Shown here in pieces: positions 467-5,502 of a DNA stretch of 22,015 nt. Under the pieces are notes generated by a model. That model was not told the DNA's origin. It did not search any database and saw only the letters and a list, made by a program, of their open reading frames with translations. Source of the DNA: a virus; IMG/VR virus record IMGVR_UViG_3300032282_003630, positions 1 through 22,015 of that record. One strand, given 5' to 3'. The stretch's first letter is position 1. Each line of letters starts with the position of its first letter. Made by a program: the position numbers and the translations under genes.

Positions 467-509
467 ACCCACCATGCCTCTCAACGATGCACACTTTGGT
501 GGGTTTTTT
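467..509 (+). terminator. Rho-independent terminator after gene 32
   Basis: A perfect 8-bp inverted repeat (ACCCACCA at 467-474, TGGTGGGT at 497-504) is followed by a T-run (504-509). Three more pairs (TGC 475-477 with GCA 489-491) may extend the stem across a bulge. It lies 37 bases after the gp32 stop and is oriented to stop gene 32 transcription. Read from the minus strand the same hairpin follows the last gene of the converging operon, but no T-run follows it there, so any action in that direction would be weaker. Confidence 0.85.
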
Positions 510-514
510 ATTGG

Positions 515-2302
515 TTAAACAGGAACAACACTATTTTTTATTTGATATTGAATGTTGGAATCTCTTGTTTTTGCCGAAGCAGTTTGTATTACCTTTGGAG
601 GTTTGCCACCAATATTGTTTACATTATTATTAACCGCAACTACGGGAGTATTTGTTCCTGTGGAAGAAGTTGGTGTGGATTGCATTTCCGGAACAGTTGA
701 AGATTTTGGTATAGGTTGAGTATTGGGACTATAACCACGGCCTTTACCAGCACTACTTTTTAATTTCTCTTTATAATCTTTTGCCCAACTTCTAATATCT
801 TTAGAGAATTCTGGTTCTACTGTTTTAGTTTGTGCTTCGTGTTTAGGATTACGGGTGCCGTGCATTGCTGAAAATGCAGCACCTTCTGGTGTCATTTCAG
901 GATTAGTTTGACGAATTTTAGGCAACTTTTCAATAGCTGCCAATTTTTCTTCTATAGTTTTTTCTTGATTTGTTGTAAAGAATGTATACAAAGCATCCGC
1001 AGCATCTTCACCATAAGCGCCAGCATATATTGCACCAGTAACTCCACCAAGAATTGAGGTAATAGGACCAAATGCGGCGCCTACTGTTGCGCCAATTAAT
1101 CCACCACCCGTAGCACCAAGAGCACCACCAAGAGAACGTACAATTCTTTGGTGCATTTCTTCTTCTGTTATTTTATCTGCTTCATGTAATTTAATAGCAT
1201 CATTTATATCTTTAATTGCAACACCAAAAGTTAATGCGGTTGATATGGCAGGAAGGCTTGTTAAAAATTTAACTAATGATTTTGCACCTTTTAAAGCTTT
1301 TCCTCCGTATTTGCCAACTTTTTGAGCTGTTGGTTTTGCTTTATCGATAGCCGCACCTGCAGCTTTTGTTATTTTTTCTGTACGAGTTAATGATTTATTG
1401 GCAGGCTCATAATTGGCTTGAGAACCTAAAGGCATTGCAGTGCGACCAGCACCTCTAACCTTCATAGTTTCTTTCATACGATTTTGTCCCGTAGAACCTC
1501 TAGTAGTCCTATTCACAGGTCCTGTAGGCCGCTCAATCCTGCCGGCCGGCATTGAAGGTGCCGGAGTTTTTGGCGCAAAAGCTTTTGGTAAAAACTTTTT
1601 TCCTAATGAAACAAAAGGCTTTGCGGCACCTCTAAGCATCCTAGAAAGTGTTCTAGCCAAACCTTGACCTGCTCTTGGAAGTTTATCTAAAAGGTTATCA
1701 GCTAAAGCTCCTATACCCAAACCACCAAGCAAACCAATGCCACCATCACCTTCTGTTTTTTTACGACCAACGCCTCTCCGACCGGTGAATTTTTTAATTG
1801 CATCGACTAAAGCTTTATGTCTGCGCTCATCTTCATTCAATTGTTCTTGTCTAAAAGCTTGTTCAATTTGACTATCTATTTTATAAACTTGATGAGATTT
1901 TGTCATAAAGTTATACATTTTACCAAGAACATCCGAAACACTATCACCGACAGTTAATGGTCTAATTGGTCCATTACCAACTGACGTAAAGTTTGGATCT
2001 TTTTTAACTTTTGAACTTTTTCTTCCGTATCCACCAAAAGCTTTGATATCTCGGTCTTTTCTACCAAAAATTCTACCAAGACCAGTCACCGCCAAATCAC
2101 CAAATGCTCCTTCACCCGCAGCCTTTCTTACCCAATTTAAAGGATCCAAAGATTCTTTGATACCTGTAGCTTTTGCTTTAAATCTACTGGAGATAGCACC
2201 ACCAACTGCACCACTAACACTCTTATTGTTTTCAAAGAGTTCTTCATTGATTAGTGATAATAATCCAGTTTTTCGAATTTGTCGTGCTTTTTGATAGTCC
2301 AT
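515..2302 (-). CDS. Putative tail tape-measure/baseplate-hub-associated virion protein (595 aa)
   Basis: I do not recognise this as a named T4 gene. Visible features are a basic N-terminal third; a module at residues 102-133 (starting DPNF, ending KMYNFM) that recurs in the upstream neighbour; a charged helical stretch to about residue 180 (DERRHKALVDAIKKF); long Gly/Ala/Pro/Lys-rich segments; a glycine-zipper-like hydrophobic block around residues 390-435 (GGALGATGGGLIGATVGAAF); and a Ser/Thr/Asn-rich end. It starts three bases after the stop of the 554-residue gene and is the last gene of the operon. T4 gp29, the tape measure and hub protein, is about the same length (590 aa) and is encoded near gp26/gp51. 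A tape-measure or hub role is therefore an inference from position, length and hydrophobic content, not from clear sequence similarity. Confidence 0.55.
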   Translation of the reverse strand: MDYQKARQIRKTGLLSLINEELFENNKSVSGAVGGAISSRFKAKATGIKESLDPLNWVRKAAGEGAFGDLAVTGLGRIFGRKDRDIKAFGGYGRKSSKVKKDPNFTSVGNGPIRPLTVGDSVSDVLGKMYNFMTKSHQVYKIDSQIEQAFRQEQLNEDERRHKALVDAIKKFTGRRGVGRKKTEGDGGIGLLGGLGIGALADNLLDKLPRAGQGLARTLSRMLRGAAKPFVSLGKKFLPKAFAPKTPAPSMPAGRIERPTGPVNRTTRGSTGQNRMKETMKVRGAGRTAMPLGSQANYEPANKSLTRTEKITKAAGAAIDKAKPTAQKVGKYGGKALKGAKSLVKFLTSLPAISTALTFGVAIKDINDAIKLHEADKITEEEMHQRIVRSLGGALGATGGGLIGATVGAAFGPITSILGGVTGAIYAGAYGEDAADALYTFFTTNQEKTIEEKLAAIEKLPKIRQTNPEMTPEGAAFSAMHGTRNPKHEAQTKTVEPEFSKDIRSWAKDYKEKLKSSAGKGRGYSPNTQPIPKSSTVPEMQSTPTSSTGTNTPVVAVNNNVNNIGGKPPKVIQTASAKTRDSNIQYQIKNSVVPV

Positions 2303-2305
2303 TTT

Positions 2306-3970
2306 TTAACCGTAATATGTTTTTTCTATTAATGCGGGCCGATTAGCTCTTTCTTCTTCTGTCAAATAAGTTGTACCACCATGTGCTATATTGGTAGTAT
2401 TATTTAACATAGATATTGAATCGGATTTAGATGTTGATTGATTATTTAACTGTTTTGGATCTGGTGGTATATTGACTGGTGGTACCGGACTAATCATAGG
2501 CGATTTTATTGGTTTACTAGAAAAACCTTTTTTTTCTAGACTAGATTTGTATTGACCTACTGTTAATTTTGCAACAGATGGATTTTGTCTTGCACCTGCT
2601 TTTCCTAAAACATCAGCCATCGAAGTTGACTCTGGACCATTTATAATTTTTTTGGTTTTTTCCATGTTACCAGTAAAATGCATGGCATATAAAGATTGGT
2701 CTGAAACCGGAACACCGGCCTTTTCTAATCTAGCAATATTTTGTGCTGTTAAAAATTCCATCAATTTTTCTTGATTTTCTAAACTAAATCTTTCATTTCT
2801 CCAATTAGGTCCAAAAGTTTGTGGAGCCAAACCATCTTTTCTTCCTTCATCATAAAGTGTATTTGGTTCAAATTGATATTTTCCTGCTGCACCACCACCA
2901 TCGAGTTGTGCATTTCTTCTTCTACCCAATTCTATAACTTCAGGAATTGTCATGTCTGTTAATTTTTTATCATATTGTTTTCCTGTTGTTATATCAACAT
3001 TTCCAGGAACAACCATAGCGGTACTTTGATTACCATTTTTAACTTCTTTAGAGGTGATATTCATTTGATTTGGATCACCTTTTGATTCTGCAGAAGCAAT
3101 TTTGGCCATTGAACTTAATGCTGTAACCGCTGTTGTACCAACTATAACTTTAGTTGCAGTAGAAACTCCTGGTTTGGCCGATTCTTTAACTGCTTCTTTG
3201 GCTGCTTTTACTGTGGGTTTATTGAAAATACTTAAAGCTTTGTCTACACCTTTTTTTAATGTTGTTAAAATACCAGAAAAAAATGATGATCCTTCTCTTT
3301 TGGCAGTTTCTTCTTCTTGTTTTTCTTTTTTAACTTTAACTCGTTTGTATCTTCCACCAAACAAACCAATTAATTCTTCAATGTGTTTTTCTCTTAAATC
3401 TTGAAGAACTTTTCTGTATTTTTTATCTGCTTTATGTTTTTTATTATCATATTCATATTTAAAAACCATAAGATTATACATTTTGGCCAATATATCAGCC
3501 AATGTATCATTTACTTTTAATGGTCTTACTTGATTTGGTGGTGTTGATGAGAAATCTGGATCTTTAGTACTAACAGCCTTCTTTACAGAACTTTGTCTTT
3601 TTTTACCAACATTGTTATTTTGTTGCATTGAATCCATTGTATTTCTAGGATTCATGGTCACATCATTACGAGTTTTTGTTGTTGATGACATAATAGGATT
3701 CGTTATCATATTCTGAACGCCTTTAGTGGCTGCAACTTTATCAGCCATTTCTAAAGCTTTCTGCGTTAACTCGTAAGCAGTTTCGGTAGGTTCTCTTTTT
3801 TCTGGTGCTCGTTCTATTTCTTTGAGCGGACCTTTAGGTTGCCAGGGTTCTGATGGTGTAGATGTTTTTTTTGATTTTCTAGGCAGACGAATGTTACCAC
3901 CCATACTGGCGGCATGCATTTTTAACTTTAATTCAAGTTGTCTTTTTTGTTCGTCTAGGTCGTTTGCCAT
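2306..3970 (-). CDS. Virion-associated protein with C-terminal peptidoglycan-hydrolase (lysozyme/transglycosylase-like) domain (554 aa)
   Basis: The N-terminal third is polar and basic. Residues 137-168 (starting DPDF, ending KMYNLM) repeat the module of the downstream protein, followed by a charged helix. A hydrophobic segment sits near residue 280 (ATKVIVGTTAVTALSSM). The C-terminal domain (about 290-490) resembles phage muralytic domains. It has a candidate catalytic Glu at 295 in IASAESKGDPNQ, a TIPEVIELG stretch, and the GAAGKYQFEPNTL signature (GKYQF at 363-367). The protein probably cuts the cell wall at infection as part of the tail, replacing the lysozyme domain of T4 gp5, which the gp5 genes in this window lack. 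It is immediately downstream of gp26/gp51, as tape measures follow tail chaperones in many tailed phages. The ATG is four bases after the gp51-frame stop. Whether it is tape measure, hub or spike-associated enzyme is not settled. Confidence 0.7.
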   Translation of the reverse strand: MANDLDEQKRQLELKLKMHAASMGGNIRLPRKSKKTSTPSEPWQPKGPLKEIERAPEKREPTETAYELTQKALEMADKVAATKGVQNMITNPIMSSTTKTRNDVTMNPRNTMDSMQQNNNVGKKRQSSVKKAVSTKDPDFSSTPPNQVRPLKVNDTLADILAKMYNLMVFKYEYDNKKHKADKKYRKVLQDLREKHIEELIGLFGGRYKRVKVKKEKQEEETAKREGSSFFSGILTTLKKGVDKALSIFNKPTVKAAKEAVKESAKPGVSTATKVIVGTTAVTALSSMAKIASAESKGDPNQMNITSKEVKNGNQSTAMVVPGNVDITTGKQYDKKLTDMTIPEVIELGRRRNAQLDGGGAAGKYQFEPNTLYDEGRKDGLAPQTFGPNWRNERFSLENQEKLMEFLTAQNIARLEKAGVPVSDQSLYAMHFTGNMEKTKKIINGPESTSMADVLGKAGARQNPSVAKLTVGQYKSSLEKKGFSSKPIKSPMISPVPPVNIPPDPKQLNNQSTSKSDSISMLNNTTNIAHGGTTYLTEEERANRPALIEKTYYG

Positions 3971-3973
3971 CTA

Positions 3974-4111
3974 CTATTTTCTTGCTGACTGTTGTTGTTT
4001 TATCTTTTCGTTTTCTTCTTCAATATACTGAACCAACATAGCAACGTAAACGTCCCTTTCCCACGGTATCATATTTTCAAGTTCCGTGAGAGAATACTTA
4101 TGGTGTTGCAT
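3974..4111 (-). CDS. gp51: gp51-like baseplate hub assembly module, 45-aa stand-alone reading
   Basis: A short open frame in the space between gp26 and the 554-residue gene encodes a compact polar protein with a LTELENMIPWERDVYV core and a Glu/Lys/Gln-rich helix to the end. This PWERD/E-x-Y pattern is what I recall for small gp51-type proteins downstream of gp26 in T4-like phages; T4 gp51 acts catalytically in hub assembly. The ATG at 4111 is the only ATG that reads through this core, but no Shine-Dalgarno-like sequence precedes it (the bases are CU-rich). The same frame stays open upstream with protein-like sequence (YYKTNFSL before the Met). I therefore think it is mainly made as the C-terminal part of a gp26 frameshift product. 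This entry records the alternative of independent translation. Confidence 0.5.
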   Translation of the reverse strand: MQHHKYSLTELENMIPWERDVYVAMLVQYIEEENEKIKQQQSARK

Positions 4112-4887
4112 CAAGGAGAAATTAGTTTTATAATAATTTCTCAAATTGTCATGACAAAATATTACTCGAAAAAACTTTCGAGGCCTTCCATTTCGATACT
4201 ATGGTCAAATCCACATTTACCACATTTCATATTCAATGTCTTATTTAACTTTGGTAAAGTATCAAAAAATTCTTCAAGTTTAGCAAACTGGTCTTGGTTC
4301 AGAGATTCAACAAATTGTGCCAATTCTTCTCTTGTAGTTTCGTGAGCATAATAATATTGTTCACCATCAAAAATATATTCAATTGAATCGATTACAATTT
4401 CAAAAATAATATCAACAGCAGAAGTTTTATCAGCTATTCTATTAACCAAAGAAAATTCTGGATATTTTAATCTCACACTAATTTTATTTGTTAACTGTAT
4501 AACATCTTTGTGATTAGGATTTAAATCAACCTGAACATCCAGTAAATTCAATGTGCCTTTCATTTTACCACCACAAGGATTTCCTTCTACCTCGTTGGAA
4601 CAGATGTAATCATTTTCAACAATTTCACCAACGGACCTTGCTCTAAGGTTAATAAAATAATATTCAACATCAATTACAGGTAAATTGTCAATGTCAACAT
4701 TTTCTGTTATTGTGCAATTGGTTAAAACTTGTCGAACATTTCTTTCAATCGTATCTCTATCGTCTGCTTCCATCGCCATCATTAAATTTTTTTGCTCTTT
4801 TACTAGAAAAGGACGAAAGCGAATATGTTTTTTAGAGAGTGGTAAATCCAGTTCATAGACTGGCGTATCAATCTTTGGTAAAGCCAT
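3974..4887 (-). CDS. gp26-gp51: gp26-gp51 fusion by predicted -1 ribosomal frameshift (304 aa)
   Basis: Zero-frame codons at the end of gp26 read AGT TTT TTC GAG TAA, so the heptamer T TTT TTC (4174 down to 4168) allows both tRNAs to re-pair one base back. After slipping, translation continues CGA GTA ATA without a stop into the gp51-type sequence and ends at the TAG at 3976-3974. The product would be gp26 residues 1-240 plus 64 new residues. Support: a classical X-XXY-YYZ site one codon before the zero-frame stop, an open -1 frame across the whole junction, conserved-looking sequence upstream of the only gp51 ATG, and no ribosome-binding site for that ATG. The arrangement mirrors the lambda G/G-T tail chaperone frameshift, which also precedes the tail-length gene. 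The frameshift is inferred and no efficiency can be stated. Confidence 0.65.
4116..4142 (-). promoter_or_regulatory. Stem-loop downstream of the gp26 slippery site
   Basis: On the minus strand GAGAAATTA and TAATTTCTC form a perfect 9-bp stem (plus-strand arms 4134-4142 and 4116-4124) with a 9-base loop. It begins 25 bases after the slippery heptamer. That is longer than the usual 5-9 base spacer of frameshift stimulators. A perfect 12-base palindrome TTGTCATGACAA (4146-4157) lies closer, 10 bases after the heptamer. The stem lies within the predicted gp51 coding frame, just ahead of its only ATG. It could modulate frameshifting or hold down initiation at that ATG, or be chance in AT-rich sequence. 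Confidence 0.4.
4162..4887 (-). CDS. gp26: gp26 baseplate hub assembly protein (T4_baseplate family)
   Basis: This 241-residue protein opens with PVYELDLPLSKKHIRFRPF, a pattern typical of the T4 gp26 family, which is needed to build the central hub of the baseplate. Four cysteines, C96 and C105 (CSNEVEGNPC) and C222 and C225 (CGKC), could form a split zinc ribbon. T4 gp26 is somewhat shorter (about 208 aa). A strong Shine-Dalgarno sequence, AAGGAG, lies 7 bases before the ATG (plus-strand 4895-4900). The end of the gene, residues S238-F239-F240-E241, is encoded over a slippery T-run, so a fraction of ribosomes probably makes the longer gp26-gp51 form. It sits between the tail-tube-like gene and the hydrolase gene in one operon. 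Confidence 0.82.
   Translation of the reverse strand: MALPKIDTPVYELDLPLSKKHIRFRPFLVKEQKNLMMAMEADDRDTIERNVRQVLTNCTITENVDIDNLPVIDVEYYFINLRARSVGEIVENDYICSNEVEGNPCGGKMKGTLNLLDVQVDLNPNHKDVIQLTNKISVRLKYPEFSLVNRIADKTSAVDIIFEIVIDSIEYIFDGEQYYYAHETTREELAQFVESLNQDQFAKLEEFFDTLPKLNKTLNMKCGKCGFDHSIEMEGLESFFE
4168..4174 (-). promoter_or_regulatory. -1 frameshift slippery heptamer T TTT TTC
   Basis: The heptamer TTTTTTC is in the correct phase for tandem slippage (zero frame: T, TTT, TTC), two codons before the gp26 stop. An internal Shine-Dalgarno-like GGAAGG lies about 9 bases upstream of the heptamer, close to the distance at which such elements stimulate -1 frameshifting in bacterial genes such as dnaX. 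Inverted repeats lie over and downstream of the site and are listed separately. The site is seen directly; its activity is inferred. Confidence 0.65.
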
Positions 4888-4917
4888 TTTAAAACTCCTT
4901 TTTCAATTCAATTATAG

Positions 4918-5502
4918 TTAAAGTCCATTAACCAAGGCTGTAAGGCCTGTGGTCTTGATATCATTTATAAGTCCAGAAACAGTATTATTATTCCATTGTT
5001 TATACATAAAAACTACTGCCAATTTATGATATGAATCGGTTGACCAATCCATATCTAATTGATTAACATCTACTGGAAAAGCTTCTTGCAAAACTCCAGA
5101 ATAGGTTAAATTGCCATTAACATCATATTGGTTAACAGAAATGTCTACCGCATAATTTGATTTATATTGAAAATTAAAATCTGTAGTAGGATTTATTAGT
5201 TCCATCCAAGCATCAAAGAAAATCTTTTCATTCATGTCATCGGAAACAATAAAAGTCATAGTTGATTGTTGATAATTTGTATGATATGGAAAATATTCAA
5301 CGGGTGCTGAACCCATTTTCTTTTGAGCAGTTTCAAAAGTTCTACCAGGTAATTGAGCAGTTTCACATCTGTAGGTCAAATTTCTTGCAGAAGAAATGTA
5401 AAATCCTAATGATAGTGGAATAGGAATAGTTACATCAAACCTTGAGGGTCTGGCAACATCGGTTTTAAAACTTGATTTGAATTGGTTAATATTACCTGCC
5501 AT
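4918..5502 (-). CDS. Tail tube family protein (gp19 / gp54-like)
   Basis: This 194-residue protein has the pattern of T4-type tail tube subunits: a SSFKTDVARPSRFDV start, LTYRCETAQLPGRTF in the middle of the N-terminal half, SDDMNEKIFFDAWMELI, and an EAFPVDVNQLDMDWSTDSYH segment ending VVFMYKQW. gp19 polymerises into the inner tube through which DNA passes; gp54, its relative, starts tube growth on the baseplate. The length is nearer gp19 (163 aa in T4) than gp54 (320 aa). Its place among hub genes, away from any sheath gene in this window, suggests an initiator role as an alternative. A Shine-Dalgarno AGGAA precedes the ATG, which comes one base after the upstream stop, so translation is probably coupled. 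Tube family is secure; gp19 versus gp54 is open. Confidence 0.8.
   Translation of the reverse strand: MAGNINQFKSSFKTDVARPSRFDVTIPIPLSLGFYISSARNLTYRCETAQLPGRTFETAQKKMGSAPVEYFPYHTNYQQSTMTFIVSDDMNEKIFFDAWMELINPTTDFNFQYKSNYAVDISVNQYDVNGNLTYSGVLQEAFPVDVNQLDMDWSTDSYHKLAVVFMYKQWNNNTVSGLINDIKTTGLTALVNGL

Follow-up and report, generated by a model that had tools for sequence, protein, structure and literature searches.

A Probable Programmed −1 Frameshift Linking Gene 26 to a gp51-Type Tail in an Uncultured T4-Like Phage and Its Relatives

Introduction

Where a gene 26 homologue of a T4-like phage ends beside an open −1 frame, does its protein stop there, or do some ribosomes change frame and carry it on into the region known from T4 as gp51? 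We address this question in a stretch of 22,015 nucleotides (positions 1 to 22,015 of IMG/VR record IMGVR_UViG_3300032282_003630, hereafter the window), for which a sequence-only reading had proposed such a shift. According to the passages of PMC12846349 that cite Vladimirov, Gautam and Davidson (2022), polyT tracts are known −1 signals in the TAC-N genes of T4-like phages; in what PMC10885494 takes from the same work, some T4-like phages carry a short gene and a fused long gene instead. As far as these excerpts describe the TAC-N/TAC-NC scheme of Vladimirov et al. (2022), the short and long chaperones proposed here follow it, with the difference that the window comes from an uncultured relative. 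The frameshift principle is already published, and to this known mechanism the window adds a new case with good support. The abstract by Vladimirov, Gautam and Davidson (Virology 2022, 566:9-15) is said to deal with T4 genes 26 and 51 and to describe frameshifting as conserved in several T4-like groups. Given a published principle, the value of the present analysis lies in confirmation, breadth and the repair of annotation; what it offers is an example from an uncultured phage, a broad survey, the recognition of misannotated "gene 51" entries, and a candidate Shine-Dalgarno-like stimulator upstream of the slip site.

The Gene 26 Locus

All features given below lie on the minus strand unless a plus sign is stated. 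The open reading frame at 4162..4887 encodes a gp26-like protein of 241 aa, the putative short tail assembly chaperone (TAC-N), which matches PF12322 (T4_baseplate) over residues 9-241 with 197.4 bits (curated cut-off 24.5) and PHROG 150 over profile positions 5-233 (E=4.4e-63). NCBIfam holds no match for either gp26 or the −1 tail, and a sequence search of the PDB with the gp26 profile gave nothing credible. The strong ribosome-binding site previously ascribed to gp26, AAGGAG, can be read directly at 4895..4900. The 3′ end of the gene runs GAA GGC CTC GAA AGT TTT TTC GAG TAA, and contains the slippery heptamer T TTT TTC (4168..4174) 10 bases before the stop; read from 4174 to 4168 it stands in the X XXY YYZ phase, so that the correct phasing claimed for it is confirmed. 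Likewise, the −1 frame is open for 64 codons past the slip (RVIFCHDNLRNYYKTNFSLMQHHKYSLTELENMIPWERDVYVAMLVQYIEEENEKIKQQQSARK) as had been claimed, down to a TAG at 3976-3974. This tail (TAC-C, 3974..4168 with its stop) would supply residues 241-304 of a fusion of 304 aa, the junction of which is spanned by SFFRVIFCHDNLR. The first ATG of the −1 frame, at 4109..4111, had been called its only one; two others follow, 13 and 24 codons further on. It does lack a ribosome-binding site, no Shine-Dalgarno sequence being found upstream by a simple motif test, and it is not a start in the model that we prefer.

Such a configuration is rare within the window. In-frame TTTTTTN occurs at 6 of 6,875 coding codons, and gp26 alone among the 19 main genes has it within the last 20 codons; nor does any other of the 19 combine an X XXY YYZ heptamer that close to its end with a −1 frame that stays open for at least 60 codons past the stop. 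At a random coding position, the −1 frame is open for at least 64 codons with a probability of 0.008. Chance is ruled out for the slip site because the site is conserved in relatives (see below).

Gene 26 is directly preceded by a tail tube gene (4918..5502; PHROG 45, E=2.4e-34) and followed by genes for large proteins with weak matches only: one of 554 aa (2306..3970), which starts 3 bases past the −1 frame stop and has a weak virion-protein match (PHROG 6126, E=8.7e-8), and one of 595 aa (515..2302), possibly tape measure-like. In the relative HTVC008M, a tape measure gene is annotated shortly downstream. The setting resembles that of lambda G/G-T (Xu, Hendrix, Duda 2004) and P2 E/E+E′, in which a short chaperone with a −1 extension likewise follows the tail tube gene; there the tape measure region comes next, as it may here. 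The likeness is one of scheme.

Relation to T4 gp26 and gp51

The −1 tail matches PHROG 634 (gp51) at E=1.2e-30. It also matches PHROG 150, at positions 232-276, taking up where gp26 leaves off at 233, and therefore the profile runs straight across the frameshift junction. PHROG 150 covers both T4 proteins, gp26 at 14-235 and gp51 at 13-280. When profiles were compared, that of frameshift fusions matched that of gp51 from T4 and Acinetobacter phage 133 at E=5.8e-13; the 232 aligned columns begin in the N-terminal domain and reach into the −1 tail. T4 gp51 is itself 249 aa long. Thus, the earlier description of gp26 joined to a gp51-type tail holds as to the PHROG 634 match, yet it understates the relation: the whole fusion, and not just its tail, aligns with gp51. 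Judged by these alignments, T4 gp26 and gp51 are short and long versions of one protein, and the counterpart of the predicted frameshift product is the complete T4 gp51 rather than a minor extension. As had been noted, T4 has separate genes 26 and 51, and these are divergently transcribed; T4 gp26 aligns with the short form and T4 gp51 with the entire fusion, but with two separate genes frameshifting is not needed there. The window offers no N-terminal part of gp51 other than gp26 itself, and no start codon backed by a Shine-Dalgarno sequence precedes the conserved part to give a gene 51 of its own. Since T4 gp51 has the whole N-terminal domain, the functional long form would include gp26.

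The fold of the N domain was approached with an AlphaFold2 model of gp26, built from 26 aligned sequences from IMG/VR loci only (mean pLDDT 87). Foldseek found no significant match to this model in the PDB, and among viral models it found other T4-like gp26 proteins. In a second-look alignment the four best PDB rows were 3fgx, 3klu, 2ob9, and 5ir0, with Z from 7.7 to 5.6 and the next row at 3.7; individual values were 7.7 for 3fgx, 7.3 for 3klu (YqbN), and 7.1 for 2ob9 (HK97 tail assembly chaperone), all below Z 8. All four rows fall on the N-terminal domain (residues 1-95) of gp26. YqbN and 3fgx are themselves related to phage-type chaperones. The modeled fold agrees with that of a chaperone, at scores under the Z needed to stand alone.

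Conservation of the Slip Site and the −1 Frame

That the slippery heptamer and the open −1 frame are kept in relatives, on which the original proposal hung, was upheld by comparison of the junctions. A scan of IMG/VR gave 80 near relatives, one of which ends before the junction; T TTT TTC with an open −1 frame is present in all 79 that could be scored, even though their gp26 proteins are only 65-78% identical, and the frame is open for 61-67 codons or to the end of the record. A wider survey, in which further scans and cultured reference phages were added, comprised 259 loci, which fell into 95 clusters when grouped at 85% protein identity. An in-phase TTTTTTN lies within 31 bases of the gp26 stop in 90 of these clusters, exactly 10 bases ahead of it in 78 of the 90, with a seventh base that is C in 80, T in 9, and G in 1. 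The −1 tail measures 55-73 codons in every cluster with a complete tail (86/86). Holders of the site include KVP40, S-ShM2, Syn1, P-SSM4, and Acidovorax ACP17, together with variants in pelagiphage HTVC008M and Sinorhizobium phiM19 (both T7) and in Rhizobium RL2RES (TTTTTTG). A comparable arrangement, an invariant polyT (GTTTTT) near the 3′ end of TAC-N with an open −1 frame, occurs in phage Adele, which belongs to another family, the Vandenendeviridae (PMC12846349).

The six-T signal is absent from five of the 95 clusters: three Ackermannviridae, Vibrio phage K362, and Stenotrophomonas IME-SM1. The Ackermannviridae and K362 share a TTTTC near the gp26 stop in place of the T6 heptamer, and their −1 frame, which is open, encodes the gp51-like motif MPWH; TTTTC is possibly a different, shorter slippery site. 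At about 2220-2313 of IME-SM1 there is a five-T run (GAG GAT TTT TCG); the annotated gp26 continues into a nonhomologous tail, and a different frame encodes the gp51-like domain. This reflects a miscalled homopolymer or else another arrangement.

Selection at the Slip Site and in the −1 Tail

The site is more constrained than its amino acids demand. TTT TTC serves as the slip codons in 31 of 31 clusters of the window's own group, always preceded by a codon that ends in T; given the residues and the codon usage of the group, T TTT TTC has a chance probability of 0.13 per single sequence. By contrast, both TTT and TTC occur in most of the other columns of conserved Phe. In the same group the seven-codon windows over the slip form the peak of synonymous conservation in the fusion (observed/expected 1.74, against a mean of 1.17 and sd of 0.15), a contrast to which no formal P value is attached because the sequences are related.

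From the slip to the first ATG, codons of the window group that differ by a single base show 2770 synonymous against 1177 nonsynonymous differences and no stop when read in the −1 frame, compared with 863 to 2413 and 68 stops in the gp26 frame; in both other frames the differences are mostly nonsynonymous and include stops. This stretch, which lies ahead of any plausible start codon, is therefore read by ribosomes in the −1 frame. Furthermore, the −1 frame is closed by a stop at most one codon upstream of the heptamer in 11 of the 90 clusters, so the shift must occur at the heptamer.

Proposed Mechanism and Its Rivals

On these comparative grounds, we consider the long tail assembly chaperone very probably the product of a programmed −1 ribosomal frameshift. 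Most ribosomes would terminate at 4162 and release gp26 (TAC-N, 241 aa), the short form. A minority, we infer, would move one base backwards on T TTT TTC (4174-4168), with the tRNAs that had paired with TTT and TTC now pairing with TTT TTT; these ribosomes would then read 64 more codons to yield a TAC-NC of 304 residues, the counterpart of T4 gp51. Lambda slips on a different heptamer, G GGA AAG, at a few per cent. Lambda G and G-T bind the tape measure protein while the tail is being built; the same would be expected of both forms here, and the idea that gp26 and the fusion are the T4-like counterpart of the lambda pair has gained support from the conservation of the site, the coding tail, and the gp51 homology.

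The annotation of most related phages implies instead a separate gene 51, as a stand-alone gp51 with its own start. In the window, this would require the −1 frame to be begun at ATG 4111, TTG 4144, or TTG 4114 by reinitiation after gp26, and among the more distant clusters an ATG does stand 3 codons past the slip, near the gp26 stop, in 22 of 56, where reinitiation is conceivable. Yet in the window group 19 codons of the conserved domain precede the first ATG, which is replaced by ATA in 4 of 31 relatives, and the codons ahead of this ATG evolve as −1-frame protein, which bears out the earlier remark that the conserved part begins before 4111; a Shine-Dalgarno sequence before a −1-frame start at most 20 codons past the slip is found in just 2 of the 34 window-group clusters; and a separate gene leaves the invariant T TTT TTC unexplained. 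We regard it as highly improbable.

A homopolymer might also let RNA polymerase stutter and produce frame-mixed mRNA, an explanation that suits the nine clusters with T as seventh base. Nevertheless, transcriptional slippage needs no fixed phase, yet the T TTT TTN phase is kept in 90 of the 95 clusters, and the seventh base, outside the T run, is C in 80; six Ts are, moreover, short for slippage by a bacterial RNA polymerase, and we find this reading hardly credible. The homopolymer invites, too, the suspicion of an assembly or sequencing error, or of a decayed gene, in which one true gene was split by a miscall. The error is refuted by the recurrence of the same junction in independently assembled contigs from many samples and in KVP40, S-ShM2, Syn1, and P-SSM4, and decay is at odds with the protein-level selection acting on the −1 tail; this last explanation is vanishingly improbable.

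Candidate Stimulators

If the programmed frameshift is accepted, a GGAAGG resembling a Shine-Dalgarno sequence, at 4184..4189 and 9 bases upstream of the heptamer, is a candidate stimulator by duplex energy. Nearly all clusters have a GAAGG/GAGGG run ending 9 bases upstream of the heptamer, whose pairing with the 16S tail averages −6.6 kcal/mol versus −1.7 in control stretches of gp26. Under a synonymous null that keeps the residues, the expected value is −5.4 kcal/mol versus the −6.6 observed, and the element is largely explained by a conserved Glu-Gly. Only tentatively, then, and with more doubt than conviction, do we suggest that T TTT TTN with a fixed GAAGG/GAGGG about 9 bases upstream (a dnaX-like stimulator) might be the ancestral chaperone device of T4-like phages, kept in Kyanoviridae, schizoT4, rhizobial, and pelagiphage lines and lost where gene 51 is separate (T4, Acinetobacter phage 133).

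Downstream of the heptamer no strong stem-loop was found, an RNAalifold consensus on 34 relatives reaching only −1.2 kcal/mol. Inside the −1 tail there is a perfect 9-bp inverted repeat, GAGAAATTA...TAATTTCTC (4116-4142), which would form a stem at 26-52 bases past the heptamer; over the downstream sequence, mean z ranges from −0.5 to −1.8 by group and stretch. Compensatory change affects a single pair of the stem, whose covariation does not clearly exceed that of slid controls, and evidence for its conservation as a structure is marginal. A 7-bp palindrome around the heptamer, CTCGAAA...TTTTCGAG, covaries no more than shuffles do.

Annotation of Gene 51

In the records of S-ShM2, Syn1, KVP40, phiM19, P-SSM4, RL2RES, Bellamy, and others, the product is entered as a stand-alone gp51 or hypothetical protein, or is omitted, and none of the record regions inspected in these phages holds a joined CDS. 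S-CAM4 and Syn2 have no gene annotated after gp26 although the conserved −1 tail is intact, and gp51 is therefore missing from their annotation. In cyanophage-like and schizoT4 genomes, what is called "gene 51" is most likely no gene but the −1 tail of gp26, which would explain why it is tiny, oddly started, or unannotated there. The frameshift device spans a wide range of T4-like phages, and the two-gene layout of T4 can be read as derived.

A minor observation concerns the far end of the window, where positions 468-504 (plus strand) match the abiF RNA family (RF03085) with 47.1 bits (gathering 37; E=5e-6). The match was not found in five larger relatives, in which controls of the same search likewise gave nothing. 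It sits between two convergent genes, with six Ts after the hairpin, and may be a terminator resembling the family.
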